A stretch of DNA of 64,000 bases from Streptomyces sp. R44 (GTDB lineage Bacteria > Actinomycetota > Actinomycetes > Streptomycetales > Streptomycetaceae), in assembly GCF_041053105.1 (NCBI RefSeq), contig NZ_CP163444.1, forward strand, positions 1,984,001-2,048,000, in the 5' to 3' direction. The notes below the pieces were generated by a model. It saw nothing but the letters and a program-made list of their open reading frames with translations. It made no database searches and was not told the DNA's origin. The translations under genes and the position numbers were made by a program. Shown here one piece after another: positions 21,585 through 60,336 of this stretch (within the stretch, counting starts at the first letter, position 1; each line of letters begins with the position of its first letter).

Positions 21585-21792
21585 CCGTTGTGGGCATGCG
21601 TTCCGCCGGGGCGGAACGGGTGGGCACAACGGAACGGCGCTCCTGCCGGCGCCAGAGGCTCCCGCGCCTGAACCCGCACCACTGGTGCCGTACAGCAGGT
21701 GCTGGTCCAGGCGCGGAACGCGGAGGCGCCGCTGGGCGCGCCGTCCCGTGTGCCCACCCGTCCCGCCCCAGCGGGACGATTGCCCACACGGG
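21585..21792 (+). repeat. Three-hairpin intergenic repeat, copy 1
   Basis: Hairpin A is at 21585-21632: outer stem CCGTTGTG/CACAACGG, 6-nt internal loops GGCATG and GGTGGG, inner stem CGTTCCGC/GCGGAACG. Hairpin B is at 21745-21792: outer CCCGTGTG/CACACGGG, inner CGTCCCGC/GCGGGACG, loop CCCA. Between them is a 112-base middle segment nearly identical to copy 2. An extra partial left arm stands at 21546-21567. It ends 31 bases past the stop of the minus-strand glycosyltransferase. Confidence 0.9.
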
Positions 21793-21822
21793 GGGGGTGG
21801 GCCCCACACGGGCGCGGCCGCG

Positions 21823-23097
21823 TCAGCGGAGGCGGCGGACGATTCGGCCCGCTCTCGCCTTCTGGGCGTAGATCGCGTCGATCAGGCGACCAAGCCCCCG
21901 GTGCACCCGAACCCGCCCCGGCGAGTGGACGCGACGGCTCGCGCCCCGAGCGACCAGCTCCGACCACAGCGCCTCGTGCCGCGCGGCGATCCGCACCGGG
22001 TCGAAGCGTTCGGACGCGGCGAGCGCCGCCCGCCCCGCCTTGGCCCGCAGCTCGTCGTCCGAGATGAGCTCGCGCAGCGCGGAAGCGACCGCGGCGACGT
22101 CGGCGACCGGCACGAGCCGCCCGTCGACCCCGTCCTCGATGATCTCGCGCGGCCCGTAGGGGCAGTCGGTGGAGACGACGGGCAGCCCGCACCGCATCGC
22201 CTCGACGATCGTCATGCCGAAGGACTCCCGCTCGGAGGTCACGGCGGCGATGGAGCCCTTGGCCCATTCGGGTTCCATGGGGGTGACCGAGCCCATGAGG
22301 AAGGCCTGCCCCTCCAGGCCGCGCTCCTTGATCTGCCGGGTCAGCGGGGCCCTGAGGTCCTGGACCGCGTCGCCGGAGCCGTAGATCCGCAGTTTCCAGT
22401 CGGGATGGTCGGCGGCCACGGACGCGAAGGCGTCGATCAGCACGTCGTACCGCTTGACCCTGGTCAGCCGCCCCGCCGCGACGACGGTCCGCGCCGCGAG
22501 GTCGGCGGGCGGAACCGAGGGCGCGGGCACGCTGTTGGGGACGGCCTCGACGCGGACGCCGGGCAGGGCGAGCCGCCGGTACGCGCGGGCGTCGGCCTCG
22601 GTGACGGTGGTGACGGCGTCGAGGAGCGCGTACTCGTGGCCGATGTCCCGGCGCAGCCGGTAGCTGTGGCCGTCCAGGATCAGGTGCTCCTGGCCGACGA
22701 GGACGGGCCCCCGGCGGGCCTGCCGGGCGAGGTGCACGTTGAGCCCGGGGCGGGTGGCGACGAGGACGTCGGCCTCCACTCCGCGCAGGTATTCGCCGAT
22801 CCGGGTGTCGGTGAGCGCGCTGTACTGCTTCCAGCGGCCGTCGCCGCGCGGGAAGACCTGGGCGGGACGGTGGAAGTCGGGGTCGTCGCCGTCGTATCCG
22901 GGGCTGTCCCGGCGCAGGTCGACGAGGTGGCGCAGGGTCACCCCCGACGGGAGGCCGAGGTGCGGCCGGTCCCGGTGGCGGAACACCGAGACGATCTCGA
23001 CCTCGTGACGTTCCGCCAGTTCCTCGGCGAGGGTGAACGTGGTCCGGATCGTGCCGCCGTAGTGATAGCCGTTGTGAAGCAGAAAGGAGATACGCAT
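21823..23097 (-). CDS. Glycosyltransferase, family 4
   Basis: A 424-residue GT-B glycosyltransferase. The N-terminus MRISFLLHNGYHYGGTIRTTFTLAEEL is the acceptor-side Rossmann start. The donor-side domain holds VVAAGRLTRVKRYDVLIDAF, the catalytic EX7E motif ERESFGMTIVEAMRCGLPVVSTDCPYGPREII, and a basic C-terminus. No membrane segment. It probably adds a sugar to a surface glycan or glycolipid; similar single GT4 proteins are common in Streptomyces. Start is ATG 23097 with AAAGGAG upstream. It ends 31 bases before a copy of the three-hairpin repeat. It follows the Liv-type binding protein with an 81-base gap. Confidence 0.88.
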   Translation of the reverse strand: MRISFLLHNGYHYGGTIRTTFTLAEELAERHEVEIVSVFRHRDRPHLGLPSGVTLRHLVDLRRDSPGYDGDDPDFHRPAQVFPRGDGRWKQYSALTDTRIGEYLRGVEADVLVATRPGLNVHLARQARRGPVLVGQEHLILDGHSYRLRRDIGHEYALLDAVTTVTEADARAYRRLALPGVRVEAVPNSVPAPSVPPADLAARTVVAAGRLTRVKRYDVLIDAFASVAADHPDWKLRIYGSGDAVQDLRAPLTRQIKERGLEGQAFLMGSVTPMEPEWAKGSIAAVTSERESFGMTIVEAMRCGLPVVSTDCPYGPREIIEDGVDGRLVPVADVAAVASALRELISDDELRAKAGRAALAASERFDPVRIAARHEALWSELVARGASRRVHSPGRVRVHRGLGRLIDAIYAQKARAGRIVRRLR

Positions 23098-23178
23098 CGC
23101 GCCGCCGGTTCCCCCCGGTCAGTCGGTGTTCTTTCGATCGGTCGGTGCCCGACTGTACTGCGGGTCCGCGGCCGCCTT

Positions 23179-24471
23179 TCACGGACGGTAGCCGAGCTGG
23201 GGGACGGTCGCGCAGTTCTCCGTCATGTCTCCCTGGCTCACCCAGCCCCGTCCGTCCTGCCAACGGGCCACGGACAGACAGGTGTTACGGCTGGCGGGCG
23301 GCCGGGGCAGCCGCTCGAACCGTACGGGGAGCAGCAGTCCGCGCGCGGTGTACGGCTCCGGACGGTTCATGAACTCCTCGACGCAGCCGCGGGTGAGCGC
23401 GCCCCGGGCGAGGCAGGAGCGGGCGGCGTCGGTGAACCACATGGCCGCCGCCCAGCCCTCCAGCTGCCACTGGGACAGCGGCCGGTCCCCCATCGCCGTC
23501 CGGAACTCGTGGACCGCCGGCTGCGCGGTGTCCTGGTAGTTGCGGCTGGATCCCGTCACCCACAGCGAGGCCCGGCAGCCGGGCGCCCGGGCGTAGTCGC
23601 GGGGGACGGCCGAGGACCAGTTCTGCACGTTCGTCACCTTGGCGGAGACCCGGACCCCGAGCGTCTCCATCGCCTCGCACAGCCGCACGTTGCCGTGGGT
23701 GTCCATGGCGTCGAAGACGAGGTCGACGTGCTCGGCCCGCAGATCGGCGGCGACCGCGCGGAAGTTGGGCAGCGCGAAGTCGACCTGTTCCTCGACGACC
23801 CGGTAGCCCTCGGTGCGCAGGCCGCGTGCGACGAGCCGGGCGTAGGCGGCGGACGCGGCCTGGTTGTAGGAGACGACGGCGGCGGTCCGCGCGCCCAGCT
23901 TCTCGCGGAACCAGTGGTAGACCTCGGTCCCGCCGTACAGCGTGCCGTTCCAGCCGGGCGCGCGGCCGGTGCGCGGGGCGGAGCTGCCGTAGATGCCGTA
24001 GAGGTGCGGATAGGTGTCGTAGGCGGGGGTGAGGGGCTGGCCTCCGATGTCGGGGACGCCGGCCCGGGCGACGAGGGGCGCGCCCGCGTAGTTCAGGGCG
24101 GTGGTGGCGACGAGGGCGAAGACGCCGCGCTCGTCGACGAGCCGGTGCACGCAGGCGTTGTTGCCGACGCCGCTGCCGCCGTCGTCGCAGGTCTCGACCT
24201 CGATCCGGCGTCCGTCGAGGCCACCGCGCGCGTTGAGGGCGTCGAACCAGGCACGGGCTCCGTCGCGCGGGCCGGTGAAGGTCTCCCCGCCGACGGGGCT
24301 GGTGGTGCTGGTGATGATCCCGACGCGGAGCGGCTCACCGCCGGAGGGGTTGACGGTGGGCCGCGTCTCGAAGGCGCGCTCCGGGAGCCGGCTGCCGCAT
24401 CCCGTGAGGAGGGTGAGGAGCACGGCCAGGAGCAGCGCCGCGATCGCCTCAGCAGCCCGGAACGGTGACAC
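23179..24471 (-). CDS. Liv-type ABC transporter substrate-binding lipoprotein
   Basis: A 430-residue periplasmic-binding-protein-like lipoprotein. The signal peptide ends LLTGC, giving Cys25. The LivK fold appears as LRVGIITSTTSPVGG, DARAWFDALNARGGLDGRRIEVETCDD and VDLVFDAMDTHGN. It is longer and more Cys-rich than typical LivK. The GTG start at 24471 overlaps the upstream lipoprotein gene by 23 bases. Divergent at 25104-28821 are the permease and ATPase genes of a branched-chain-type transporter, which presumably it serves. Confidence 0.85.
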   Translation of the reverse strand: MSPFRAAEAIAALLLAVLLTLLTGCGSRLPERAFETRPTVNPSGGEPLRVGIITSTTSPVGGETFTGPRDGARAWFDALNARGGLDGRRIEVETCDDGGSGVGNNACVHRLVDERGVFALVATTALNYAGAPLVARAGVPDIGGQPLTPAYDTYPHLYGIYGSSAPRTGRAPGWNGTLYGGTEVYHWFREKLGARTAAVVSYNQAASAAYARLVARGLRTEGYRVVEEQVDFALPNFRAVAADLRAEHVDLVFDAMDTHGNVRLCEAMETLGVRVSAKVTNVQNWSSAVPRDYARAPGCRASLWVTGSSRNYQDTAQPAVHEFRTAMGDRPLSQWQLEGWAAAMWFTDAARSCLARGALTRGCVEEFMNRPEPYTARGLLLPVRFERLPRPPASRNTCLSVARWQDGRGWVSQGDMTENCATVPQLGYRP

Positions 24472-24955
24472 CGCTCAGCTCGACCAGGCCGCACAGGGTC
24501 TTCATGGAGACCTTCCAGGTGTCGTTCTGGAGGACGGAGGTGCCCTTGGAGCCGGGCAGGGCTGGGGAGCCGCCGACCAGGAGGTCGTAGGTGACGTTCG
24601 CGTCGGTGGCCGAGGTGAACTCGATGCCGGTGACCTTCGCGGAGGTCATGGCCGCGTTCTTGTCGGCGGCGAAGGCACCGAGCACGGGCCGCAGCTGCTC
24701 CCCGTTCTCCAGGAGCTTCACCTTCTCGGCGACGGGGGTCCTCGGGTCGAAGAACGCCGTCCAGTTCTTGGTGATCTGGGCCTTGGCGGCGACCGGGTCG
24801 GCGGGACCGACCGTCGGCGGGGAGGACGAGACCGTGCCGCCCGTCTTCCCGCCGTTGTCGTCGGAGCAGCTCGCGAGAGCGGGCGCCAGGGCGAGGACGG
24901 CGACGGTCCCGAGGACCGCGAGGCGGCGGCGTCCACCGAGTCGTACGACAGCCAT
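24449..24955 (-). CDS. Small lipoprotein
   Basis: A 168-residue secreted lipoprotein with a basic start (MAVVRLGGRRR) and lipobox ALASC (Cys about 30). The mature part, ADPVAAKAQITKNWTAFFDPRTPVAEKVKLLENGEQL, followed by VTGIEFTSATDANVTYDLLVGG, looks like a small NTF2-like fold often seen in Streptomyces low-molecular-weight antigen (Mtb12-like) lipoproteins. It ends in ...VTVPGC. It lies ahead of and overlaps the Liv-type binding protein, so the two are probably made together. Function unknown. Confidence 0.75.
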   Translation of the reverse strand: MAVVRLGGRRRLAVLGTVAVLALAPALASCSDDNGGKTGGTVSSSPPTVGPADPVAAKAQITKNWTAFFDPRTPVAEKVKLLENGEQLRPVLGAFAADKNAAMTSAKVTGIEFTSATDANVTYDLLVGGSPALPGSKGTSVLQNDTWKVSMKTLCGLVELSGVTVPGC

Positions 24956-25103
24956 CTGGTCACCACCGGATGTCGCGCCGGTCCGGAGCCGGTCCGGAGC
25001 GGCTGGTGTTTCCAGGGTGAGACGGATCGGGGCATAGTGCAAGGAAAGGGAAGACAAGGGGACGCCAACGAAAGGGCAGGGGGAGGAGACGAGGGAGGCC
25101 CCG

Positions 25104-25502
25104 GTGCCGACATCCCGGATCCTGCTGTGGAGCGGTCTCGCGGCGGCCGCCGGGGGCGCGGTGCTCAGTGCGCTCGGCTGGTACGGGATCTCCGGCGAGC
25201 GGTTCGCGGAGCGCCAGCTGCCCTATCTGGCCTCGTGCACGGTGCCGGGGGCGGCGCTCCTGGTGGCGGGCGCGGTCCTCGTGGCGGCGGCCGCGCTGCT
25301 TCCCGTACGCCCTCCGGAGCCGAGTCCCCCGCCTCCGGAGGAGACTCCCCGGCCGTCCTCGGACGGCCCCCTCCTGCGGGTCCCGGCGGGGACGCTCGCG
25401 CACCGCCCCGACTGCCCGCTGGTGGCGGGCAAGGCGGAGGCCGTGGAAGCGGGGGACGCGGAGCTGGCGCCCTGCCCGGTGTGTGAACCGTGGCCTCCCT
25501 GA
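25104..25502 (+). CDS. Small two-helix membrane protein
   Basis: A 132-residue protein with two membrane helices (about 5-27 and 45-67), then a Pro/Glu-rich stretch. The tail has HRPDCPLV...LAPCPVC, a Cys/His arrangement that could bind a metal. The GTG start at 25104 follows GGGAGG. The stop overlaps the LivHMG start by 13 bases, so it is co-translated with the transporter and may be an accessory subunit. I do not recognise a family. Confidence 0.75.
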   Translation: MPTSRILLWSGLAAAAGGAVLSALGWYGISGERFAERQLPYLASCTVPGAALLVAGAVLVAAAALLPVRPPEPSPPPPEETPRPSSDGPLLRVPAGTLAHRPDCPLVAGKAEAVEAGDAELAPCPVCEPWPP

Positions 25503-28168
25503 CGTACGAGCTGACGCTCGCCGGCCTCGCGGTCGGCAGCGCCGCCGCGCTCACCGGCATCGGACTCGTCGTCACCTACCGCGCGACGGGCGTGCTGAAC
25601 CTGGCGCACGGCGCCGTCGCCATGGTCTGCGCGTATGTGCTCCGCCAGCTGGTGGTCGACTGGGGCTGGCCGCTGCCCCCGGCGGCCCTCGTCACGCTCC
25701 TGGTCGTGGCCCCCGCGCTCGGTCTGGTCCTCGACCGCGGCGTCTTCCGCCCCCTCGCGCTCCGCGGCTCGAACCCGGCGCAGACCCTGGTGGCGACGAT
25801 CGGCGTCTTCGTCCTCCTGGTCGGCGGCGCGGTCCTGCTCTGGGGCCCGGGCGCCCGGGCCGACGCGCCGGTGCTGCTCGGCGACGATCCCTGGGCCCAG
25901 CTCGCGGCGGTCCTGGCGCTGGCCTTCCTGATGGGGGCGGTGACCCGGTGGACCCGGTTCGGCCGGGAGCTGAGGGCGGTCGTCGACAACCGGCCGCTCG
26001 CCGTCCTGGCGGGGATCGACGCGGACCGGGTCGCGGCGGCGGGCTGGGCGTTCGGCTCGTTCACGGCCGGGCTCACGGGCGTCCTGCTCGCCCCGTACGT
26101 ACGGCTCGACCCGTACGGGATGCCGCTGCTCGTCGTCGAGGTGATCGCGGTCGCGGTGATCGCCCGGATGCGGTCCCTGCCGGTCGCGGTGGGGGCGGCG
26201 CTCGCGATCGGGGTGGCCCAGGCCCAGCTGACCCGGCTTCACCCGGAGGGCTGGGCGGGACCGCTGCTCCAGGCCGTCGGGGCGAACCTGTTCGTGGTGG
26301 CGCTCCTGGTGGCGGCGCTCGTCCTGCCGGGCGTCGGCGGCAAGGGCCGGGACGCGCTGCCGCCGCCGTCGCGCGCCACGCGCGTGCCGACGGCCCTGTG
26401 GCTGGTGGTGGGCGTCCTGCTCCTCCTCCCCCTGGGCCTGGCGGGCTCGGACCTGCACACGGCGATCCAGGTCCCGGCGCTCGCCGTGATCCTGCTGTCC
26501 CTCGTGGTGGTGGCGGGCCGGGGCGGGCAGATCGCCCTGGGCCAGGCGGCGTACGCGGGCCTGGGCGCCCTGTTCACCGCGCTCCTGGCGGCAGCGGGGA
26601 TCCCGACGCTCCTGGCCCTGGGACTCACGGTGCCGATGGTGGCGGTCACGGGCCTGGTGACGGGCCGGCCGGCGATCCGGCGGCACGGCCTGGCGCTCGC
26701 CCTGGCGACCCTGGCCGTGGGGGTGGCGGTGAGCCGCTTCGTCCTGACCCAGCCGTACGCGACGGCCGGCGTGACCCTCGGCCGCCCGGCGGGCTTCTCC
26801 GACGACCGCGCCTACTACGCCCTGGAACTGGTCGTCCTGGCCGGCTGCCTGGCGTCGGTGGCGGCCCTCCGCCGGGGCCGCACCGGCCGCGCGCTCGCCG
26901 CCCTCCGGGACCACGAACCGGGCGCCGAGGCGGCGGGCGTCCCGGTGCCCCGCCTCAAGCTCCTCGCCTTCGTCCTGGGCGCGGCCCTGGCGGCCCTGGG
27001 CGGCGGGCTCCTGGGCATGGGCCTGCGCGCCTTCGACCCGGAGCAGTACGACCCGGTGCGCGGCCTGCTCTGGTTCGCGGCGGTCCTGGTCCTGGGCGCG
27101 GACAGCCTCCTGACCCCGCTGGCCGCGGCGGCCCTCCTGACGACCCTGGACGCGGGCCCCCAGGCGGGCACGGCGGCGGCCCTGATCGGCCTCCTGGCCA
27201 CCCTGACGGGCAGGATCCCCCCACTGACGAACCTGCTGCCGAAGGCCCGGAGGGCCGTGGCGGGCGGCGGGAACACCCCCCTCCACGGCCCGCCGCCCGC
27301 CGAGGGCGCGGCACCCTCCACGGGAAGACCCGCACCTCGGTCGACAACCCGCACGGGCGGTGCGGGTGGGAACCCCGGACCGGCCGAAGGCCGGACGCAC
27401 CCCCACGGCCCGCCGCCCGCCGCCCGCCCGGCACCGCCCACGGCACGGGCAGGACCCGCGCGCTCCCCGCACCCGACGCCCCCGCCCGCGCCCTCGTACT
27501 CGTCCTCGCCCGGCCAGGGCCTCCGCGTCGACGACCTCACCCTCACCTACCCCGGCGGGGTCACCGCCCTCTCCCACGTCACCCTCGTCCTCGCCCCCGC
27601 CCGCGTCACCGCCCTCGTCGGACCCAACGGCGCCGGCAAGAGCACCCTCTTCGACTGTCTCGCCGGGACCCTCCGGCCCCGCCGCGGCCAGGGCCGGGTC
27701 ACGCTCGACGGCACCGACATCACCGCCCGGTCCGCGCACGCCCGGACCCGCCTCGGCATCGCCCGCACCTTCCAGCGGCTCGCCGTCTTCCCGTCCCTCA
27801 CCGTCGAGGAGAACGTCCGCCTCGGCGAGGAGCAGAAGAGCCGGCACGGGGACCCGGACGCCGTGGAGCGGAGCCTCCGGCTGTTCGGGCTCGCCGGACC
27901 CGTACGGCACCGGCCGGCGGCGGACCTGCCCACCGGCACCCTGCGCCGCGTCGAGCTGGCCCGCGCCCTGGCCGGCCGGCCGCACACGCTCCTCCTCGAC
28001 GAACCGGCCGCCGGCCTCGACGCCGCCGAGACCGCCGCGCTCGCCCGGATCCTGGCGGCCCTCGCTGCGGACGGCCTGACGGTCCTGGTGGTGGAGCACG
28101 ACCCCGACCTGGTCGCCGGGATCGCGGACACGGTGCACACCATGGAGGGAGGCCGGATCCTGTCGTGA
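25490..28168 (+). CDS. Fused branched-chain-type ABC permease-permease-ATPase (LivH-LivM-LivG)
   Basis: An 892-residue fusion. Residues 1 to about 285 are LivH-like (TGIGLVVTYRATGVLNLAHGAVA, the NxAHG motif). About 300-590 are LivM-like (GRGGQIALGQAAYAGLGAL, LRDHEPGAEAAGVPV). About 595-685 are a Pro/Ala/Gly-rich linker. About 688-892 are a LivG-like ATPase with Walker A GPNGAGKST, AxTFQRLAVFPSLTVEENV, Walker B LLLDEPAAGLD and H-loop VVEHD. The ABC signature is degenerate: LPTGTLRRVELARAL instead of LSGGQQ. The start GTG 25490 and end overlap neighbours on both sides. The protein would handle uptake of branched-chain amino acids, amides or a related solute with LivF (28165) and the divergent binding protein. 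No frameshift is seen; the linker is continuous. Confidence 0.9.
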   Translation: MASLTYELTLAGLAVGSAAALTGIGLVVTYRATGVLNLAHGAVAMVCAYVLRQLVVDWGWPLPPAALVTLLVVAPALGLVLDRGVFRPLALRGSNPAQTLVATIGVFVLLVGGAVLLWGPGARADAPVLLGDDPWAQLAAVLALAFLMGAVTRWTRFGRELRAVVDNRPLAVLAGIDADRVAAAGWAFGSFTAGLTGVLLAPYVRLDPYGMPLLVVEVIAVAVIARMRSLPVAVGAALAIGVAQAQLTRLHPEGWAGPLLQAVGANLFVVALLVAALVLPGVGGKGRDALPPPSRATRVPTALWLVVGVLLLLPLGLAGSDLHTAIQVPALAVILLSLVVVAGRGGQIALGQAAYAGLGALFTALLAAAGIPTLLALGLTVPMVAVTGLVTGRPAIRRHGLALALATLAVGVAVSRFVLTQPYATAGVTLGRPAGFSDDRAYYALELVVLAGCLASVAALRRGRTGRALAALRDHEPGAEAAGVPVPRLKLLAFVLGAALAALGGGLLGMGLRAFDPEQYDPVRGLLWFAAVLVLGADSLLTPLAAAALLTTLDAGPQAGTAAALIGLLATLTGRIPPLTNLLPKARRAVAGGGNTPLHGPPPAEGAAPSTGRPAPRSTTRTGGAGGNPGPAEGRTHPHGPPPAARPAPPTARAGPARSPHPTPPPAPSYSSSPGQGLRVDDLTLTYPGGVTALSHVTLVLAPARVTALVGPNGAGKSTLFDCLAGTLRPRRGQGRVTLDGTDITARSAHARTRLGIARTFQRLAVFPSLTVEENVRLGEEQKSRHGDPDAVERSLRLFGLAGPVRHRPAADLPTGTLRRVELARALAGRPHTLLLDEPAAGLDAAETAALARILAALAADGLTVLVVEHDPDLVAGIADTVHTMEGGRILS

Positions 28169-28821
28169 GCGTCGAGATGGCCCTGCGCGCGGCCAGGGTC
28201 CGCTACGGCCCCCTGGAGGCCCTGCACGGCCTCGACCTGCCCGTACCGGCCGGGACGGTCACGGTCCTCCTGGGCCGCAACGGCGCGGGCCGGACGACGG
28301 CCCTGCGCGCCCTCGCCGGGACGGTGGGCCTGACGGCGGGCCGGGTGGAGTGGCGCGGGGCGGACGTCACCCGGCTGCCGGCGCACGCACGGGCGCGCCG
28401 AGGCCTCTGCTTCGTACCGGACCTGCGGGCGGTGTACGCGGGCCTGACCGTCGCCGAGAACCTCGCCCTCGCCGCACCCGGGGTCCCCGCGCCCGACGCC
28501 ACCGCCCCGTACCCCGAGCTCGTCGCGCTGCTGCCGAGAACCGCCGGGACCCTCTCCGGCGGGGAGCGCCGGATGCTGGCGCTGTCCCGCGCGCTGCTCT
28601 CCCGCGCGCGCGTGGTGCTGGTCGACGAGCCGTCGCTCGGCATGGCCCCGCCGGTCGCGGCCCGTACGTACCGGATGCTCGCCGCGCTCGCCCAGGACCG
28701 CGGGGCGGCCGTGGTCCTGGCCGAGCAGCGCGTACCGGACGGGCTGCCGCCCGGCTCGCTCGTGCACGAGCTGCGGCGCGGCTCCCGCGCGTCGAGCGGG
28801 GAGCCGGCCGAGTACCGGTGA
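28165..28821 (+). CDS. LivF-type ABC ATPase with altered Walker A
   Basis: A 218-residue ATPase of the LivF family, started by GTG overlapping the stop of the LivHMG gene (GTGA). Walker A reads GRNGAGRTT, with Arg43 in place of the catalytic Lys. The signature LSGGERRMLALSRALL and Walker B VVLVDEPSLGMAPP are intact. The H-loop position is Gln (LAEQ), as in the LivF family generally. Lys to Arg in Walker A usually cripples hydrolysis. In the LivG/LivF dimer this would spoil the site that also uses the degenerate LivG signature, leaving the other site whole. It is about 15-20 residues shorter than usual at the C-terminus. Confidence 0.88.
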   Translation: MSVEMALRAARVRYGPLEALHGLDLPVPAGTVTVLLGRNGAGRTTALRALAGTVGLTAGRVEWRGADVTRLPAHARARRGLCFVPDLRAVYAGLTVAENLALAAPGVPAPDATAPYPELVALLPRTAGTLSGGERRMLALSRALLSRARVVLVDEPSLGMAPPVAARTYRMLAALAQDRGAAVVLAEQRVPDGLPPGSLVHELRRGSRASSGEPAEYR

Positions 28822-28825
28822 CACC

Positions 28826-29473
<648 letters not shown>

Positions 29474-29681
29474 CTAGGCAGCACCCCGGCACCCCCGGCC
29501 CGTGCCGCGCGGAACACTGTTCACACCCCACCCGGTCGGAGTCACGCGCCCCCTCGCACACGCCACTGGCAAGTTGCCTCGGTTCCGCGCGTGACCCCGG
29601 CCGAGGCTGGCCCGTTGAACTCGTCATGAGACGCCCGGGAACGGCCCGGCGTCCCCCCGTACCGAGTCCAGGGAGCCCCCC

Positions 29682-30464: not shown

Positions 30465-30610
30465 TGGAAGACGGCCGGCCCGGCATAGGGCGGGCGGGGC
30501 TCTCCGGGACGGGGGCGGGGCCGGGCGTGCCGACCGTGCCGCGTCCCCGGAGCGCTCCCCTTTCGGAGAGCCGCCCGCATCCGACGGGCGGCGGTGTCGT
30601 TGGCACCTAT

Positions 30611-30931: not shown

Positions 30932-30944
30932 GGCGGAAGAACGT

Positions 30945-30984: not shown

Positions 30985-30995
30985 GTCACGTCGTC

Positions 30996-33986: not shown

Positions 33987-34059
33987 CCCGTGTGGGCAAT
34001 CGTCCCGCTCGAGCAGGGGGGACCCCCATCGCCCCTTGCGGAACGCCTGCCCACAACGG
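33987..34059 (-). repeat. Shortened three-hairpin repeat, copy 4
   Basis: A 73-base derivative. The left arm belongs to hairpin B (CCCGTGTG, GGCAAT, CGTCCCGC; 33987-34008) and the right arm to hairpin A (GCGGAACG, CCTGCC, CACAACGG; 34038-34059). The middle and inner arms are gone, leaving one imperfect hairpin. The centre holds a 25-base module (34006-34030) that also occurs inverted in copy 3 at 60115-60138. It lies 27 bases past the tyrA stop. Confidence 0.8.
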
Positions 34060-36673: not shown

Positions 36674-37363
36674 ATGACTCCGGACGAGCTGGTGCGCGAG
36701 CACACGATCTACTCCTGCGTGATGGGCTCGCGCGCCTTCGGTCTGGCGACCGAGGACAGCGACACGGACGTACGGGGCGTCTATCTCGCCCCGACGCCGC
36801 TCTTCTGGCACTTCGACAAGCCCCCGGCACATGTGGAGGGCCCGGGCGAGGACCAGTTCAGCTGGGAGCTGGAACGCTTCTGCGAGCTCGCCCTGCGCAA
36901 CAACCCGAACGTCCTGGAGTGCCTCCACTCCCCCGTCGTCGAGCACGTCGACGACCGGGGCCGCGAGCTCCTCTCGCTGCGCGGGGCCTTCCTGTCCCGC
37001 CGGGCCCACCAGACCTTCGTGCGGTACGCGGCCGGCCAGCGCCGCAAGCTCGACGCCGACGTCCGTCAGTACGGGCATCCGCGCTGGAAGCACGCCATGC
37101 ACCTGCTGCGGCTCCTCACCAGCTGCCGCGACCTGCTGCGCACGGGCGAGCTCCGCATCGACGTCGGCGAGGCCCGCGACCGCCTCCTCGCGGTCAAGCG
37201 CGGCGAGGTGCCCTGGCAGGAGGTCGAGTCCTGGATGAACCGCCTCCAGGAGGAGGCGGACCGGGCCCACGACACGACCCCGCTCCCGGCCGCCCCGGAC
37301 GAACCCCGGATCCAGGACTTCCTGACCCGCGCCCGCCGCGCCTCGGCCCTGAACGAGCTCTGA
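36674..37363 (+). CDS. Nucleotidyltransferase (YcgL/pol beta superfamily)
   Basis: A 229-residue protein. The pol-beta nucleotidyltransferase motif is visible as YSCVMGSRAFGLATEDSDTDVRGVYLAP (GSRAxG...SDxD). The C-terminal part is helical (HAMHLLRLLTSCRDLLRTGEL). The family comprises predicted nucleotidyltransferases of the YcgL type, of unclear substrate, thought to modify RNA or proteins. ATG 36674 follows the Rieske gene by 10 bases. The stop is the first of a run of repeated stop codons (see repeat at 37355). Confidence 0.88.
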   Translation: MTPDELVREHTIYSCVMGSRAFGLATEDSDTDVRGVYLAPTPLFWHFDKPPAHVEGPGEDQFSWELERFCELALRNNPNVLECLHSPVVEHVDDRGRELLSLRGAFLSRRAHQTFVRYAAGQRRKLDADVRQYGHPRWKHAMHLLRLLTSCRDLLRTGELRIDVGEARDRLLAVKRGEVPWQEVESWMNRLQEEADRAHDTTPLPAAPDEPRIQDFLTRARRASALNEL

Positions 37364-37398
37364 GCGAGCTCTGAGCGAGCTCTGAGCGAGCTCTGAGC
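37355..37398. repeat. 11-base tandem repeat (GAGCTCTGAGC) x4
   Basis: Four exact copies of an 11-base unit and a partial fifth span the end of the nucleotidyltransferase gene. Each unit carries a TGA, and because 11 is not a multiple of three the TGAs fall in all three frames (37361, 37372, 37383). The first copy encodes the last residues and the stop. Confidence 0.9.
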
Positions 37399-37414
37399 GA
37401 GCTCCGGGGGCTCG

Positions 37415-48546: not shown

Positions 48547-48695
48547 GGGCCACGCTCCCGTCCACCTGCGCACGAGCCGATCCCGCGGGGGGCTCCGCAC
48601 GGGCGATTCCGAGCGTAGTTCAGGGCGGGAGGGGGACCTGGCGGAGCAGCGCGGACAGTTCCCCCGATCGGATCAGCAGATCTTCACACCACCCC

Positions 48696-48906
48696 CCGTT
48701 GTGGGCAGGCGTTCCGCAAAGGGCGGAACGGGTGGGCACAACGGACGGCGCCCCTGCCGGCGCCAGAGGCTCCCGCGCCTGAACCTGCACCCCCGGTGAC
48801 GGCGCGCCGGTGGTGCGGGCCCAGGCACGGAACGCGGAGGCGCCGCGAGAAGGCGCCGTCCCGTGTGCCCACCCGTCCCGCCCCAGCGGGACGATTGCCC
48901 ACACGG
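48696..48906 (+). repeat. Three-hairpin intergenic repeat, copy 2
   Basis: Same orientation as copy 1. Hairpin A 48696-48744 (CCGTTGTG/CACAACGG outer, CGTTCCGC/GCGGAACG inner, 5-nt loop); middle segment 48745-48860; hairpin B 48861-48906 (CCGTGTG/CACACGG outer, CGTCCCGC/GCGGGACG inner, loop CCCA). It ends 13 bases past the NUDIX gene stop on the minus strand. Confidence 0.9.
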
Positions 48907-48918
48907 CGGGCGGGCGCG

Positions 48919-49629: not shown

Positions 49630-51279
<1,650 letters not shown>

Positions 51280-51773
51280 CGCCAAGAGGGGGCTCCCGTG
51301 GTCGCGTTCTGGAGGTGCGTACCGGCTTCCCCTCCGGAAGAATCGGGGGGTGCCGTCGCTGCGGTTTCGGGGTCCTCGGCTGTCGCCGTTTCCCACCGGT
51401 CCACGGGGTACCAGGGTATCAGCGACATCGGGAGACCGCTTCCGGCCACACGCGGCAGTCGGGTGTTCACGGACGGCGACGCGGCGGCCGGAGCCGGGGG
51501 AAGCCGCAGCTCACCCGGGTGGAGCAGCGCGCGGCCCGTGTGATCACTACGGTCGCCGGGGTGGCACGTATTCTGCTCGGACACCGTCCGCCGAGGAGGC
51601 CGGCGTCGCCCGCCGCTCAGGCAGGCCCGTTCCGTCGAGCAGGCCCGCTCGTCCCGTCGAGCAGACCCGTTCGTCCCGCACACTGGCCTTGCCGACATCG
51701 CACAGACATCACGCACATCAGCAGCAAGCGCCCCCTCGGGGGCGGACGTGGCCGTACGACTGGAGTGAAGCAC
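51280..51773. promoter_or_regulatory. Divergent region between pyrG and the GH15 gene
   Basis: 494 bases; I find no convincing gene. Bases about 51621-51678 hold three imperfect copies of a short C-rich unit (CCCG...CCGTCGAGCAG). The GH15 gene RBS is GGAG at 51762-51765. Promoters for both genes should lie here, but I could not fix boxes. Confidence 0.4.
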
Positions 51774-53576: not shown

Positions 53577-53718
53577 CGAGGCGTACGGAAGCTAGCGGGG
53601 CGTACGACGGCCGGCGCGCGTACCGAGGCCGGGTCGCGCACGGAGGCTGAGGGGCGCCCCAGGGGGGCCGGACCTACGATGAGAAGGTCCCGTCCCCCCG
53701 TACGAAAGGGGGGCTCCC

Positions 53719-55101
53719 ATGGCTCCCCACGTCTCCGAGAGCGCCCTGGCCGGACTGGTCGAGGACCTGGCCGGTGAGGTGATCACACCCGGCGATCCGG
53801 CCTACGACGAGGCCCGCGCCCTGCACAACGGCATGATCGACCGACGACCGTCGGTGATCGCCCAGTGCGCCACCCAGGCCGATGTGTCCAACGCGATCCT
53901 GTTCGGCCGCGAGGCCGATCTGCCGATCGCGGTCCGCGGCGGCGGGCACAGCGTCGCCGGGACCTCCATGATCGACGGCGCGCTGATCGTCGACCTCCGC
54001 CGGATGCACGGTGTCGTCGTGGACCCGGAGGACATGACGGTACGGGTCGAGGGCGGGGCGACCATGGCCCAGCTCGACCACGCGTGCCAGCCGTTCCACG
54101 TGGCGACCACCGGCGGCCGGGTGTCCACCACCGGCGTCGGCGGCTTCACGCTGGGCGGCGGATCGGGCTGGCTGGAGCGGAAGTTCGGTCTCGCCAGCGA
54201 CAATCTGCTGGCCGCCGACCTGATCACCGCCGAGGGCAAGCACGTCCACACGGACGCGGAGGAGAACCCGGAGCTCTTCTGGGCGCTGCACGGCGGCGGC
54301 GGCAACTTCGGGGTGGCGACCTCGCTGACGCTGCGGGTGCACGCGCTGCCGCGGATGAGCCTCTCGATGCTGCTGTTCCTGCCGGACGACGCGCCCGAGG
54401 TGGTGCGCACCTTCCGTGATCTCGGCCTGAGTGCGCCCGACGAGATGGGTGGCGGCGCTATCTATCTGCCCGCGCCCCCGGAGCCGTTCATACCCGAGGA
54501 TCTGGTCGGCAAGCTGCTCTGCGGGGCGGTGTTCACGAACGCCGGGCCGGTGACGGAGCTGCGTGAGTTCGCGGCGCCGCTGTTCGCGCTGAAGCCCGTG
54601 GTGGAGATCGTCACGGACATCCCGTACGTGGACCTGCAGTCGATGATGGACGACCCGCCGGGGCTGCGGAACTACTGGTCGGCCGAGTACCTGCGGGAGT
54701 TCCCCGACGAGGCCGTGGACGTCTTCTGCGACCGCGGCGCGGGGATCCCGGCGGAGACGGCCACCCAGCACGTGCTGTTCCTGATGGGCGGGGCCGTGTC
54801 CGCGGGGCCCTCCCAGTACCCGCAGCCGTGGCGCACCGCGCCCTGGGCGGTGCACCCGTTCGCGACCTGGGAGGACCCCGCGTACGACGAGCGGGCGAGG
54901 CAGTGGGTGCACGACGTGCGGGCCGATGTGCGGCCGTGGGCGCTCGACGCGACGTATCTGAACTTCGTCGGCGACGAGGGCGAGCAGCGGATCGTCTCCT
55001 CCTTCGGGGAGAGGAACTACCGCCGGCTCGCCGCCGTGAAGGCCCAGTACGACCCCGACAACGTGTTCCGGTTCAACCAGAACATCGTCCCGGCCGGCTG
55101 A
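53719..55101 (+). CDS. FAD-linked oxidoreductase (BBE/PCMH type)
   Basis: A 460-residue FAD-dependent oxidase or dehydrogenase. The PCMH FAD domain has VRGGGHSVAGTSM, where the His is the covalent FAD attachment site, and GGFTLGGGSGWLERKFGLASDN. The position of the second (Cys) flavin link of berberine-bridge enzymes is Ser here (GGRVSTTGVGG), so only one covalent bond is likely. The C-terminal BBE motif is YDPDNVFRFNQNI. Oxidises an alcohol, sugar or other small molecule. ATG 53719 follows a GGGGGG-type RBS. Convergent with the amine oxidase gene, six bases apart. Confidence 0.9.
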   Translation: MAPHVSESALAGLVEDLAGEVITPGDPAYDEARALHNGMIDRRPSVIAQCATQADVSNAILFGREADLPIAVRGGGHSVAGTSMIDGALIVDLRRMHGVVVDPEDMTVRVEGGATMAQLDHACQPFHVATTGGRVSTTGVGGFTLGGGSGWLERKFGLASDNLLAADLITAEGKHVHTDAEENPELFWALHGGGGNFGVATSLTLRVHALPRMSLSMLLFLPDDAPEVVRTFRDLGLSAPDEMGGGAIYLPAPPEPFIPEDLVGKLLCGAVFTNAGPVTELREFAAPLFALKPVVEIVTDIPYVDLQSMMDDPPGLRNYWSAEYLREFPDEAVDVFCDRGAGIPAETATQHVLFLMGGAVSAGPSQYPQPWRTAPWAVHPFATWEDPAYDERARQWVHDVRADVRPWALDATYLNFVGDEGEQRIVSSFGERNYRRLAAVKAQYDPDNVFRFNQNIVPAG

Positions 55102-55107
55102 TCCGGC

Positions 55108-56742
55108 TCATCGCAGTGCGGTGATCACCTCCTGGGCGGCGCGGGCGCCCTCGGTCGCGCCGCCTTCCATGAAGCCCTGGAAGTCGTACGAGCAGTGCTC
55201 GCCGCCGATGTGGACGTTGCCCTGGGCGGTGCCCTCGTACCCGGCGTACCGGTGGAGGTAGCCGACGGGCCAGCAGGAGTACGCGCCCAGGGAGTAGGGG
55301 TTCTTGTGCCAGGCGGACAGCTGGGCGCGGCCGGTGTACGCCCGGGAGGTGCCGGGGAAGAAGGCGTCGATGCCGGCCAGGTAGCGGGTGACCAGGTTCC
55401 GCACGTACGGGTCGGACTCGGTGGAGAACGGCCCGGCCGGGTTCAGGTTCCGGGCCAGGCTGCCGCCGCCGTACTGGAGGAGGATCCCGCCCGTGCCGCC
55501 CTGGACCTTGGTGGTGTCCCAGGTCTGCTGCACCTCGGTGTCGGTGAAGCAGTCGCCGGCGGAGACCCCGGGCCAGGCGCCGGTGCCGCGCCAGGGCCGG
55601 GTGCCGAACTGCATGTTGAGCTTGGTGCAGTAGCCCATGCGCGCGTCCCGCAGGAGGTTGCGCATGAGCGGGTCGAACCCGGCCTGGGTGAGGTCGAGTT
55701 GCTGGAGGATCGGCAGCGGGACGCACAGGATCGTGTGGTCGGCGGTGACGGTCCGGGTGGCGCCCGCCTCGGTGAAGGTGAGCGTCTGGGTGCCGTCGGC
55801 GTTGGCCCGTACGGCGGTCAGCGACCAGCCCATCCGCAGGGTGCCGGGGGCGAGGGCCCCGGCGACGGCGTTGGGGAGCCGGTCGTTGCCGCCGACGACG
55901 TGGTAGCGCTCGTTGGACAGGCCCCAGACGTTGAAGTTGCCGGGATTGGTCTGGTAGCCCATGAGCAGGACGAGGGCGAGCGAGGACTGCTGGGTGGTGT
56001 CGGCGCCGTACTCGACGTTGTAGGCGACGTCGAGGAACCGGCCGAGCGGTGAGGAGTGCCCGCCGGGGACGCGGCTCTCGATCCACTCGTACAGCGACAT
56101 GTTGTCGAGGGCGGTGCCGGTGGGGGTGGTCTGGTTCCACTTCACCTCGCCCGCGTCGATCAGGTCGCGGTGGAGGGCCTGGTAGACGGCGTTGAAGTCC
56201 TCGTCGGCCTGGGCGCGCGGGTAGTAGGTGCCGTTGAACCAGAGGACTTCCTCGGCGCCGTTGGGTCCGCCGCCGAGGAAGTCCTCGACGGCGAGGTCGA
56301 AGCGGCGACAGAGCTCCAGGATCTTCTTGTGGCTGGTGTCGATCAGCTCGCCGCCGATCTCGGAGGTCTGGCCGTACGCCCAGTGGTCCCGCTGGGTGTA
56401 CATGCGGCCGCCGACCCTGGACGGGTTCGCCTCGTAGAGCACCGGGCTCAGTCCGGCGTCCTGGAGGGTGAGGGCGGCGGTGAGGCCGGAGATCCCGGCG
56501 CCGACGACGGCGATCCGGGCGGTGCTCTTCACGGGTGGGGTCGGGGTGGCGGCCGCGGCGGGCACGGCCGATCCGACGCCGACGGCGATGCCGGCCGCGG
56601 TGGCGTACTTGAGGAGGGACCGGCGTCCGAGGGCGTCGGCTCTCATGCCGCGCAGCTCGTCGACGGGGATGTTCAGCCGGCGGGCGGCGGCGTGCTCGGC
56701 GGCGAGGTTCTTCAGGAGGTGCATCGGGTTGGTGCGTGCCAT
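55108..56742 (-). CDS. Flavin monoamine oxidase, Tat-type
   Basis: A 544-residue flavin amine oxidase. The N-terminus is extended to about 70 residues and includes GRRSLLKYATAAGIAVGVGSAVPAAAA, a Tat-like twin-arginine signal sequence, so export is possible. The FAD Rossmann motif is IAVVGAGISGLTAALTLQDAGLSPVLYEAN; RVGGRMYT and the C-terminal NVHIGGEHCSYDFQGFMEGGATEGARAA are typical of L-amino-acid/monoamine oxidases. It deaminates amines with O2. ATG 56742 has AGGAG 8 bases upstream. It follows the APC permease on the same strand, separated by 29 bases. Confidence 0.92.
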   Translation of the reverse strand: MARTNPMHLLKNLAAEHAAARRLNIPVDELRGMRADALGRRSLLKYATAAGIAVGVGSAVPAAAATPTPPVKSTARIAVVGAGISGLTAALTLQDAGLSPVLYEANPSRVGGRMYTQRDHWAYGQTSEIGGELIDTSHKKILELCRRFDLAVEDFLGGGPNGAEEVLWFNGTYYPRAQADEDFNAVYQALHRDLIDAGEVKWNQTTPTGTALDNMSLYEWIESRVPGGHSSPLGRFLDVAYNVEYGADTTQQSSLALVLLMGYQTNPGNFNVWGLSNERYHVVGGNDRLPNAVAGALAPGTLRMGWSLTAVRANADGTQTLTFTEAGATRTVTADHTILCVPLPILQQLDLTQAGFDPLMRNLLRDARMGYCTKLNMQFGTRPWRGTGAWPGVSAGDCFTDTEVQQTWDTTKVQGGTGGILLQYGGGSLARNLNPAGPFSTESDPYVRNLVTRYLAGIDAFFPGTSRAYTGRAQLSAWHKNPYSLGAYSCWPVGYLHRYAGYEGTAQGNVHIGGEHCSYDFQGFMEGGATEGARAAQEVITALR

Positions 56743-56771
56743 GGGGGCGCTCCTGGAGGGTGAGGGCGGTT

Positions 56772-58286
56772 TCAGTTCTGGGGTACGGAGGCGGGGACGG
56801 GGGCTTCTTCGTCGGTGCGCTCGGTGGCGTCCTCCAGGACGATCCGGCCGATGATCTCGTAGCGCTCGGGCCGCTTGGCCTTGAGGTAGAAGCCGAGGCC
56901 GAGGCCGCCGAAGAAGACGACGCCGACGATCCACGGGATCGCCTTGAAGAAGAGGGAGTCGGCGGCGAGACCGGCCGCGGTCTCCATGTTCATGACCAGC
57001 AGCACGACGACGGCGATCATGCCGATGCCGCCGAGGAGCGGGGCCGTGAGGGTCTTGAACCAGTGCCGGTCCTCGGGGTGGTTCTTGCGGAAGTAGCCGA
57101 TGACGGCGAAGGAGCAGAGCGTCTGCACGATGAGGATCGCCATCGTGCCGAGGATCGCCAGCAGCGTGTAGAGGTGGATGTACGGGTCCTGGCCGGTGAG
57201 CCAGAAGGCGGCGACGAGGGCGACGGCGATGACGCTCTGCACGAACGAGGCGATGTACGGCGAGCCGTGCCTGGCGTGCGTCCGGCCGAGCGCCGGGTGC
57301 AGGAAGCCCTCGCGGCCGATGGCGTACAGATAGCGCGAGGCGCACTGGTGGAAGGCCATCCCGCAGGCGAAGGAGCCGGTGAGCAGCAGCCACTGGAAGG
57401 CGTCGACGGCCCAGGCGCCGATGAAGGTCTGGGTGGGCGCGAAGAACAGGTCGAGCGGCGAGGAGGAGGCGGACAGCTTCACGGACCCGGCGAGCCCGTT
57501 GCCGGCGATCGTCATCCACGAGACGTAGATGTAGAAGAGGCCGACGCCGATGACGGAGATCAGGGTGGCGCGCGGGATGACGCGCTTGGGGTTGCGGGAC
57601 TCCTCGCCGTACATCGCGGTCGACTCGAAGCCGACCCAGGACCAGAAGGCGAAGAAGAGGCCGAGCCCGGCGGAGGTGCCGGTGAAGGCGTTCTTCGGGT
57701 TGATCGGCTCGACGGGGATGCCGTCGGGGCCGCCGCCGGCGATCAGGACGGCGGTGGCGACCGCGAAGAGGACGGCGATCTCCGCGACCAGCATCACGCC
57801 CAGCGCCTTGGCGGTCAGGTTGATGTCGAAGTACGACAGCACGGCGGTGACGGCCAGCATGACCGCCGCGTACAGCACCCACGGCAGGTCCACGCCGAGC
57901 TGGTCGGCGACGGTCGTCTTGGCGAAGTAGGAGAAGACGCCGACGATCGAGGCCTCGAAGACGATGTACGCGAGGACGGCGAGCATGCCGGAGGCCATGC
58001 CGGCGATGCGGCCCAGGCCGTGCGAGATGTAGCCGTAGAAGGCGCCCGCGGCCGTGATCCGCTTGGCCATGGCGACGTAGCCGACCGAGAAGACGGTCAG
58101 GACGAGCGTCGCGAAGAGATATCCGGCGGGGGCGCCGGTGCCGTTGCCGAAGCCGACGGCGATGGGGAGGTTTCCGGTCATCGCCGTGATCGGGGCGGCG
58201 GTGGCGACGGCCATGAAGACGACGCCGACGAGTCCGACCGAGTTCGCCTTGAGCCGGTGGACCTCTGGGGTGGGGTTCTCTGCCAT
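56772..58286 (-). CDS. APC-family amino acid/polyamine permease
   Basis: A 504-residue, about 12-helix permease of the APC superfamily. The first helix holds the substrate/sodium region AVATAAPITAMTGNLPIAVGFGNGTGAPAGYL; later FWSWVGFESTAMYGEESRNPKRVIPRATLIS is the hallmark of this group (yeast/plant GABA and putrescine-type carriers). The C-terminal tail is charged. ATG 58286 is the likely start. It is transcribed just before the amine oxidase gene and divergent from the PucR gene, so it probably imports the amine which the oxidase degrades. Confidence 0.92.
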   Translation of the reverse strand: MAENPTPEVHRLKANSVGLVGVVFMAVATAAPITAMTGNLPIAVGFGNGTGAPAGYLFATLVLTVFSVGYVAMAKRITAAGAFYGYISHGLGRIAGMASGMLAVLAYIVFEASIVGVFSYFAKTTVADQLGVDLPWVLYAAVMLAVTAVLSYFDINLTAKALGVMLVAEIAVLFAVATAVLIAGGGPDGIPVEPINPKNAFTGTSAGLGLFFAFWSWVGFESTAMYGEESRNPKRVIPRATLISVIGVGLFYIYVSWMTIAGNGLAGSVKLSASSSPLDLFFAPTQTFIGAWAVDAFQWLLLTGSFACGMAFHQCASRYLYAIGREGFLHPALGRTHARHGSPYIASFVQSVIAVALVAAFWLTGQDPYIHLYTLLAILGTMAILIVQTLCSFAVIGYFRKNHPEDRHWFKTLTAPLLGGIGMIAVVVLLVMNMETAAGLAADSLFFKAIPWIVGVVFFGGLGLGFYLKAKRPERYEIIGRIVLEDATERTDEEAPVPASVPQN

Positions 58287-58351
58287 GGGCCGAGAGGATC
58301 CTCGTGGGTGACGTAGGCCACAATCGACATCCGGTCGCACAATTCCCGCCA

Positions 58352-58374
58352 CAGGGCGACGAGTTGTCGCCCTG
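58352..58374. promoter_or_regulatory. 9-bp inverted repeat, candidate PucR operator
   Basis: CAGGGCGAC-GAGTT-GTCGCCCTG in the 161-base gap between the divergent permease and PucR genes. It is well placed for autoregulation and control of the amine genes. Confidence 0.55.
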
Positions 58375-58447
58375 GTGTACGAACTGTCCGGTCCCGTAAC
58401 CGTCAGGTGATGTCGCCGGAACACGGACGCGGGTAGCGTCCGGCTCC

Positions 58448-60070
58448 ATGGACAATCAGGGCGGGATCACCGTGCAGCGGGCGCTCGAACTCCCCGGACT
58501 GCGCGGCGGGCTCCCGGAGGTCGTGGCCGGCGCGGACCGGCTGCACCGCACGGTGCGCTGGGTGCACGCGGGCGAGGTGCCGAACATCGCGTCGCTGCTC
58601 AAGGGCGGCGAACTACTCCTCACGACGGGCCTCGGCCTGGGCACCCGCCCGGCCGAACAGCGCGCCTTCGTCCGCCGGCTCGCCGACCGGGGCATCGCCG
58701 CGCTCGTCGTCGAACTCGGCCCGCGCTTCGCCCGCCTCCCGGCGACGATAGTGGAGACCGCGCGGGCGGCCGGCCTGCCGCTCGTCCAGCTCCACCGCGA
58801 GGTCCCCTTCGTCGCCGTCACGGAGGAGATCCACACCGAGATCGTCAACGGCCACTACGCCCTCCAGCGGCAGGCCGAGGAGGTCCACCGGCAGTGCACG
58901 GAGGCGCTGCTCGGCGGCGGCGGAGTGCCGCAGGTGCTCCGCATCCTCTCCGACTTCGCCGCCAACCCGGTCTTCCTGGAGACCGCCGACGGACAGCTCC
59001 TGTACGCGGCGGGCACCGAGTCCGCGCCCGCCGACCCGCTCCAGGTGTGGGACGGGCTGCGCGGCCAGCGGGCGGCCCGCGAATCCGGCCCGCCCACCGG
59101 CACGGTCCTCGTCGACGTCCCCGGCGGCGGCCCCGGTACGGGCTCGGTACGGGCCCGCCTGGTCCTCCTCGCCGTCTCCGGCGCCCTCTCCCCCGTCCAC
59201 CGGATGGCGGCCGAGCGGGCGGCGGGCCTCCTCGCGGTCGTCCTCATGCAGGCCCGCCAGGAGGAGGAGCTGGCGGCACGCGGCCGGGGCGACTTCCTGA
59301 CGGACCTGGCCGAGGGCCGCATCTCGGCGGAGGACGCGCCGGCCCAGGCGAGGGTCCTCGGCTTCAAGCCGGGAGACGGCCCGCTCCTCCCGGTGGTCAT
59401 GCGCCTGGCGTCAGAACTCTCCCCCTCGGGCAACTGGGCGCTCCTGGCCCGGGCGGTCCTGGAGGAACTGTCCTCGGTGGGCGTCCCGGCCCTCCTGGGC
59501 GTCCGCCCGGTGGAGGGCCGGGTGCCCCTGCTCCTGGGCCTGCGCTCGGAGTCGGAACGCACGGCGGTGGCGGACCGGGTCGCGGCGGCGCTGCGCGCGG
59601 GCGTGGAACGGGCGGGCCTGGAACGCGCCGGGGTGCACCCGCCGGTCGTCGTGGTCGGCGTGGCGGGCGGCTGGGCGGCGGCGTCGGCGGGCCTGAGGCA
59701 CGCGGCCGAGACGGCGACGGCGGCGCAGGGCCTCTCGGACCTCCCGTGGTACGACGCCCGACGCCTGGACATCGACCTCCTCCTCTGGCGCCTGCGCGAC
59801 CACCCGGACCTGGCGGCCTTCGTGGACCGGGCGATCGGCCCGCTGCGGGACCACGACAAGACGTCCCGCCCCCCGCTGCTCCCCACCCTGGAGACGTACC
59901 TGGCGCACGCGGGCCGCAAGGCGGAGACGGCGCGCGAGCTGCACCTCAACCGGCAGACGCTCTACAACCGGCTGGCCCGCATCTCCGAACTCCTGGGCAC
60001 GGACCTGGACGACCCCCAGACGGTCCTGGCCCTCTCCCTGGCCCTGAGAGCCCGCCGCCACACGCCGTGA
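58448..60070 (+). CDS. PucR-family transcriptional regulator
   Basis: A 540-residue regulator. Residues 1-130 form the PucR N-terminal purine-catabolism domain (LPGLRGGLPEVVAGADRLHRTVRWVHAGEVPNIASLLKGGELLLTTGLGLG). A middle region follows, and residues about 480-530 are the HTH_30 domain (AETARELHLNRQTLYNRLARISELLGTDLDDPQTVLALSLALR). Members act as activators of catabolic genes for purines, amino acids or amines. ATG 58448. Position across from the permease/oxidase genes indicates control of that operon. The stop is 18 bases before repeat copy 3. Confidence 0.92.
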   Translation: MDNQGGITVQRALELPGLRGGLPEVVAGADRLHRTVRWVHAGEVPNIASLLKGGELLLTTGLGLGTRPAEQRAFVRRLADRGIAALVVELGPRFARLPATIVETARAAGLPLVQLHREVPFVAVTEEIHTEIVNGHYALQRQAEEVHRQCTEALLGGGGVPQVLRILSDFAANPVFLETADGQLLYAAGTESAPADPLQVWDGLRGQRAARESGPPTGTVLVDVPGGGPGTGSVRARLVLLAVSGALSPVHRMAAERAAGLLAVVLMQARQEEELAARGRGDFLTDLAEGRISAEDAPAQARVLGFKPGDGPLLPVVMRLASELSPSGNWALLARAVLEELSSVGVPALLGVRPVEGRVPLLLGLRSESERTAVADRVAAALRAGVERAGLERAGVHPPVVVVGVAGGWAAASAGLRHAAETATAAQGLSDLPWYDARRLDIDLLLWRLRDHPDLAAFVDRAIGPLRDHDKTSRPPLLPTLETYLAHAGRKAETARELHLNRQTLYNRLARISELLGTDLDDPQTVLALSLALRARRHTP

Positions 60071-60087
60071 CGGGGCGGTGCCCACCG

Positions 60088-60336
60088 CCCGTGTGGGCAA
60101 TCGTCCCGCAGGGCGATGGGGGTCCCCCTGCTCGAGCGAAGCCGAGAGCTTGGGGGAGGGTGGGCACACGGGACGGCGCCCTCCAGCGGCGCCTCCGCGT
60201 TCCGAGCCCGGGCCCGCACCGGCCGTGACGGCACACATGCGGTGCGGGCTCAGGCGCGGGAGCCTCAGGCGCCGGCAGGGGCGCCGTTCCGTTGTGCCCA
60301 CCCGTTCCGCCCCAGCGGAACGCATGCCCACAACGG
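60088..60336 (-). repeat. Three-hairpin intergenic repeat, copy 3 (inverted, with insertion)
   Basis: Inverted relative to copies 1 and 2. Hairpin B arms are at 60088-60109 and 60165-60172; its inner right arm is replaced by about 50 bases (60115-60164) with a foldable core (CTCG...CGAG between C- and G-runs). Middle segment 60173-60288 reads as the reverse complement of copy 2. Hairpin A lies at 60289-60336. A further partial arm, ending at 60359, follows. Convergent genes end on both sides, 18 and 45 bases away. Confidence 0.9.

Follow-up and report, generated by a model that had tools for sequence, protein, structure and literature searches.

A mosaic hairpin repeat with REPIN-like organization behind stop codons in Streptomyces

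We analysed a 64,000-nt stretch of DNA (hereafter the window, positions 1,984,001-2,048,000 of the single-contig 8.89-Mb genome of Streptomyces sp. R44) in which a reading made from the letters alone had pointed out an intergenic repeat of three hairpins, with three full copies and one short copy. Results showed that the four copies are real, judging from their sequence, mutual pairing and half-site counts, and that the conserved unit is a single hairpin of ~50 nt, not the three-hairpin composite. We lean towards regarding this hairpin as the unit of a mosaic family of Streptomyces, similar to repetitive extragenic palindromic (REP) sequences and their inverted doublets (REPINs), which is spread in trans and tolerated in the form of 3'-end hairpins.

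Each end of a full element is one hairpin with an outer stem of 7-8 bp, a 6x6 internal loop (sides GGCANN and GGTGGG), an inner stem of 8 bp and a short apical loop, and this anatomy agrees with the 7-8 bp outer stem, 6-nt loop and 8-bp inner stem of the sequence-only reading. The two ends, A and B, are an inverted pair of one hairpin, arranged head-to-head around a palindromic middle of ~115 nt, which brings the full element to ~210 bp. The copies in the window, referred to below as the 21.6k, 34.0k, 48.7k and 60.1k sites, and their associated parts are as follows; the extra half-A site, the build of the short copy and the second short repeat are additions to the sequence-only reading.

21585..21791, + strand: full copy 1, A-middle-B; A hairpin at 21583-21635 (+), B hairpin at 21742-21794 (-)
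21546..21567, + strand: extra half-A site directly upstream of copy 1, an exact half-site
33987..34059, - strand: short copy, outer half B and outer half A with a GGGGGTCCCCC-containing loop, without the middle
48696..48906, + strand: full copy 2, A-middle-B; A hairpin at 48694-48747 (+), B hairpin at 48857-48909 (-)
60088..60335, - strand: full copy 3, in the opposite orientation; B hairpin with an insert at 60086-60175 (+), A hairpin at 60286-60338 (-)
60117..60157, + strand: second short repeat, TGGGGGTCCCCC...GCGAAGCCGAGAGC...GGGGGA, inside the B hairpin of copy 3

With a covariance model of the hairpin, the two ends scored 76.2 and 77.7 bits in copy 1, 75.5 and 74.0 bits in copy 2, and 40.3 and 77.1 bits in copy 3. 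The extra half-A site was a weak match (18.1 bits, at 21544-21575), and the short copy has both half-sites exact and gave no full-hairpin match at E up to 0.1. Copies in the window paired with one another over 68-105 nt at 90-93%. When up to 3 mismatches to the half-site TGTGGGCANNCGTYCCGC were allowed, the window held 17 matches against 3.8 expected, a count reached in none of 100 shuffles. No family of Rfam 15 matched the window at its gathering score.

The stems covary, and over 40 distinct hairpins the loop bases hardly vary. In an alignment of 41 hairpins (A1; 21 from other genomes and 20 from this one), 94.1% of the cells paired and 10 of the 16 pairs were altered on both sides, and none of 500 shuffles gave covariation as high. 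A1 represents 41 of 51 listed hairpins, as ten (three from other genomes and seven from this one) were dropped by hand without a recorded rule. A second alignment (A3), which drew on 41 hand-chosen sources, some of them also in the covariance model, comprised the 40 distinct sequences among 50 model matches; here 95.1% of the cells paired and 10 of the 16 pairs were again changed on both sides. In A3, 70 cells were changed on both sides, against a shuffle mean of 19.5 (0/500 shuffles), and the number of further pair types was less extreme (19/500 shuffles); relatedness among the hairpins inflates this test. Slid controls paired in 26-47% of cells across the two alignments. Diverged hairpins include one with the outer stem CGCTGCG/CGCAGCG and the inner stem CGTGCCGC/GCGGCACG. 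Compensatory stem changes between copies, whose absence the sequence-only reading had named as an outcome that would tell against it, are present.

Two folds compete for the full element. In the 48.7k copy the 116-nt middle forms a fold of its own, in line with the separate stem that had been proposed for it. The same copy reaches -165.0 kcal/mol as one long hairpin, against -135.4 kcal/mol summed over three hairpins, since A comes close to being the reverse complement of B. Differences between A and B are compensated within each hairpin, for example T-A versus C-G in the inner stem. In the consensus long fold, only 1 of 64 pairs had a compensated change among 49 full copies of this genome (those of the 67 without an insert), which says little against the long fold because these copies are near-identical. 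Local hairpins from many genomes covary clearly, and covariation favours them over the long fold; the lower energy of the long fold in the 48.7k copy tells against the wording of three hairpins. We also considered a G-quadruplex as the general cause of the conserved G-tracts and rejected it: the quadruplex option altered the predicted RNA fold of B, but neither that of A nor that of one diverged hairpin. The apical GGG was present in 32/32 hairpins (32 of the 40 rows were covered).

The hairpin is abundant in this genome. The exact half-site occurred 189 times and its backward control 0 times. We found 182 of the 189 within 73 examined stretches plus the window, and the other 7 outside. The 182 half-sites form 94 clusters, namely 67 full inverted doublets, 3 short copies and 24 single-orientation clusters, some of which are full copies with one altered end. 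Of the 67 full copies, 66 combine a GTTCC-type end (A) with an inverted GTCCC-type end (B); the remaining one has GTTCC at both ends. The covariance model built from the 41 hairpins gave at least 148 matches when the best 150 candidates were scored.

Several sequence modules accompany the copies. The second short repeat, TGGGGGTCCCCC...CTCGAGCGAAGCCGAGAGC...GGGGGA with variants, recurs inside hairpins of many copies, and also in other genomes (loci L051, L054, L067, L095, L236 and L237 among them), as if inserted into the palindromes. An outer motif, GGGCGGTGCCCACC / GGTGGGCACCGCCC, lengthens many full copies outward, as at 60071-60088 and 60336-60365 of the window, and further half-sites lie on the flanks of copies (CCGTTGTGGGC on the A side, GCCCACACGG on the B side). 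Apart from the hairpins, an 11-nt unit, GCTCTGAGCGA, forms a tandem array at 37335-37411 of the window, adjoining a gene end.

Beyond this strain, the exact half-site turned up in 91 genomes among 295 of the genus, with this one counted, ten or more times in 19 of them, and in 20 of 23 near relatives at 1-97 per genome; a first survey of 24 genomes outside the genus gave none. In the half-site counts, G338/G062 and G296/G066 have identical coordinates and are apparently one genome per pair. The covariance model, with the best 49 candidates scored per genome (the best 150 in selected genomes), matched 53 of the 119 genomes searched in the order, every one of them in a single genus of the five. 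Genomes poor in exact half-sites can be rich in diverged hairpins (G244, 0 exact and 24 model matches; G293, 1 and 29). The sequence-only reading had regarded few or no further copies in other streptomycetes as fatal; further copies were found, spread patchily over the genus. The nearest named relatives, by one PucR-type protein, are Streptomyces nymphaeiformis (99%) and S. litmocidini (98%). At the two variable loop positions of A, this genome has GG, TG or AT in 98 of 103 sites, and S. litmocidini has GT in 25 of 33 listed sites (by eye); dominant variants thus differ between genomes, as within-genome amplification would yield. Second modules differ as well: genome G363 carries inverted doublets of the same hairpin ~110 nt apart, on the same plan with another spacer, a shorter ACGGCGCC...GGCGCCGT middle (G363:C1, e.g. 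154549-154710; L337). In S. purpureus (L130, ~11700-12300) a related, longer unit with GGCGGAACGCATGCCCTACAACGAGGTCCGACG at its end is repeated in tandem. The hairpin repeat had no blastn match in plasmids and phages, and 16 pattern matches in viral contigs were all without a hairpin partner (by eye). A description of the repeat was not found in the open-licence literature, as judged by title and abstract.

Placement relative to genes was then counted, with genes taken throughout from a home-made codon-score caller. By these calls, 65 of the 67 full copies are clear of any predicted gene. Of all 67, 22 are flanked by convergent genes, 41 by tandem genes and 4 by divergent genes, compared with 59, 277 and 77 among 413 other gene pairs of the same stretches, so that they are enriched between convergent genes (Fisher p 0.0006) and depleted between divergent ones (p 0.008). 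A stop codon faces 63 of the 67, within 100 nt in 59, at a median of 22 nt, and 35 of the 41 tandem copies are closer to the stop than to the next start. The distance of 13-45 bases from a stop codon given earlier for the window copies came out at 12-45 nt.

Such placement would also be expected of a 3'-end RNA device (a U-less terminator, an exonuclease block or a protein-binding site) for which spread is secondary, an explanation that the covarying stems and conserved loop fit as well and that we nonetheless think unlikely. No T-run of a canonical intrinsic terminator follows the hairpin, and C predominates in the left flank columns, G or C in those to the right; in S. clavuligerus, however, 353 of 535 highly structured transcript 3' ends are described as having no U-tract (PMC8269248). 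The copies show no preferred orientation to the upstream gene, though the two strands differ in the loop, and they are missing at many orthologous sites of a close relative (see below). Eight small stretches of other genomes that could be resolved had the TGTGGGCA half facing the upstream stop codon, and a sense-orientation rule drawn from this was rejected at 40 further loci (10 sense, 13 antisense, 14 convergent and 3 not callable) as well as under a stricter filter that kept 29 loci (8 sense, 10 antisense and 11 convergent). This failure weakens a strand-neutral role at transcript ends, which may still hold, and a strand-specific RNA role is not supported (8 sense against 10 antisense). Of the earlier suggestion of a 3'-end RNA structure, the position behind stop codons is supported.

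Orthologous sites indicate turnover. At 10 sites compared with S. nymphaeiformis, three had a related copy in the relative, six had none and one, at 1909 kb, stayed unresolved. The related copies, at 21.6k, 1713 kb and 1939 kb, are short or array forms. A pattern match was absent at 34.0k, 48.7k, 60.1k, 1651, 1816 and 1828 kb; at 60.1k another hairpin stands in the relative, and at 1828 kb gene content differs too. Where this genome carries a full copy at 1816 kb, the relative has two stop codons ~18 nt apart. The short copy of the window at 34.0k corresponds to a full one in S. litmocidini, and full and short forms differ between species at 21.6k as well. At 48.7k, copies occur in both orientations across species (loci L126, L123, L117, L206 and L212 compared with window 48690-48918). 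Half-site arrays also occur at compared sites, and the variants of the middle form a patchwork. The short copies would be full copies minus the interior between the two hairpin loops. As separate observations, the 48.7k site may be a hot spot or a place of repeated remodelling, and the S. nymphaeiformis hairpin GTGGGTGGTC...GACCACCCAC at the 60.1k ortholog (L112) may be a decayed short copy.

The occurrence of full forms, short forms and half-site arrays at one site, together with the patchwork of middles and the lack of a detected enzyme, would suit a mosaic driven by recombination, in which gene conversion and replication slippage remodel old palindromes without a dedicated enzyme. Spread by recombination alone is possible. 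As an account of the whole family we consider it improbable, since ~90 clusters at unrelated sites of one genome are hard to place under it and several of the sites are empty in the close relative.

About as improbable in our view is a miniature inverted-repeat transposable element (MITE) of a DDE-type insertion sequence, with A and B as terminal inverted repeats and a parent supplying the transposase: the long near-complementary ends and discrete full-length copies would fit, but 67 copies show no target duplication, single hairpins occur without a partner end, no parent element was seen by neighbour clustering and coordinate reading among the matches listed, and the lone 2-kb end pair (G061:C5) encloses other genes. 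That pair, two inverted half-sites at G061:C5:31112-33182 (L197 3100-5190), had been considered as a possible autonomous copy and was rejected; the genes inside resemble an AraC-type regulator and an HD-domain protein (by eye).

Several results weigh against the REP/REPIN-like family spread in trans that we favour. Flanking target duplications, whose mapping the sequence-only reading had proposed, were absent, with no excess of matching flanks at k 2-10 and offsets 0-7 in the 67 copies, and no clean insertion junction was found. No Y1_Tnp (PF01797) gene was matched in this genome, nor in 12 of the 13 genomes with the most exact half-sites, and the presence of Y1_Tnp does not track copies (7/17 copy-rich versus 4/22 copy-free genomes, p 0.16), a contrast blurred by G016, one of the 22 genomes free of exact copies, which has 9 model matches. 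Replication-strand bias, which single-strand transposition predicts, was not significant (41/67, p 0.09). All 75 B sites fall in the interval 1.03-7.67 Mb and none in the outermost ~1.03 and ~1.22 Mb of the chromosome, which is not expected of indiscriminate mobility. Copies shared at several orthologous sites imply that some of the population is inherited. The fixed internal-loop columns were identical in 39-40 of the 40 distinct model matches, and this invariance is partly ascertained because the model that picks the matches rewards the loop.

A Y1 transposase as the driver is not supported; five ~3-kb stretches around Y1 genes of relatives contained no half-site. Clustering of 552 predicted, unannotated neighbour proteins revealed no recurrent transposase-like family. 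In 37 of 67 copies, GT[AG]G or its complement occurs no more than 8 nt from an end, against 14% in the control; it belongs to the outer GGTGGGCACCGCCC motif beside some copies, and its offsets outside the ends vary. The earlier suggestion of a mobile miniature element is supported by presence/absence and orientation differences at orthologous sites, but no target duplication, excision product or enzyme was found.

Among the closest known parallels are the REPINs of Pseudomonas fluorescens, REP doublets that REP-associated tyrosine transposases (RAYTs) help to mobilise (PMC3116915); as described there they are likewise inverted pairs of imperfect palindromes around a spacer, able to form one long hairpin, extragenic, of many copies and with doublet and single forms. 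The 67 full doublets here are inverted pairs of this kind, and nearly all are extragenic too. They differ in their larger hairpins, the 6x6 internal loop, the ~115-nt palindromic middle, the asymmetric A and B ends and the lack of a Y1/RAYT gene in this genome. The family behaves like REPINs, but the RAYT that defines them was not found, so we do not file it as such. In the RAYT survey sample, large Actinobacteridae genomes are described as carrying only subclass 1.1 (PMC6006769). CGTC REPs, as presented in PMC3733652, are also short palindromic repeats, mostly dimers, without a known dedicated transposase; their tag is unpaired at one end, whereas here CGT is paired within the inner stem and the following base varies (T 20, G 12 and C 8 of 40). 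Streptomyces and Actinobacteria are not named in the main text of that paper. Bacterial interspersed mosaic elements (BIMEs), as summarized in PMC3116915, share modular hairpins, half-sites and spacers, and differ from the present family in hairpin sequence and lineage and in that no TnpA-REP gene was found in this genome. The intergenic MITE-like families of P. fluorescens (PMC2718517) share inverted repeats around a core and the convergent, tail-to-tail bias; an insertion-sequence transposase acting in trans was proposed there, and none was found here.

For the REP/REPIN-like family we propose the following course. In this lineage two versions of the hairpin, A and B, stand head-to-head with the palindromic middle between them, which makes a REPIN/BIME-like element. 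A trans-acting enzyme would recognise the hairpin, probably as single-stranded DNA, and copy or move it without target duplication. We infer that this enzyme is not of the Y1 kind. Insertions would survive mainly behind stop codons, because there they cut no gene or promoter, and they may serve as transcript-end hairpins. The long palindrome would then lose its interior, decaying to short hairpins such as that at 33987-34059. A fuller version, which we offer only tentatively and doubt more than we trust, holds that Streptomyces has its own REPIN-like system, in which an enzyme other than a RAYT/Y1 transposase recognises the hairpin with its invariant GGCANN/GGTGGG internal loop and spreads it behind stop codons; throughout the genus the copies would decay into transcript-end hairpins and be put to use again in that role.

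REP-type repeats are usually credited to RAYT, and at least 148 hairpins in one genome without Y1 raise the question of what spreads them. The covariance model makes the hairpin family searchable. If the hairpins shape transcript ends, they would be relevant to gene expression, cloning and genome assembly in this antibiotic-producing genus.

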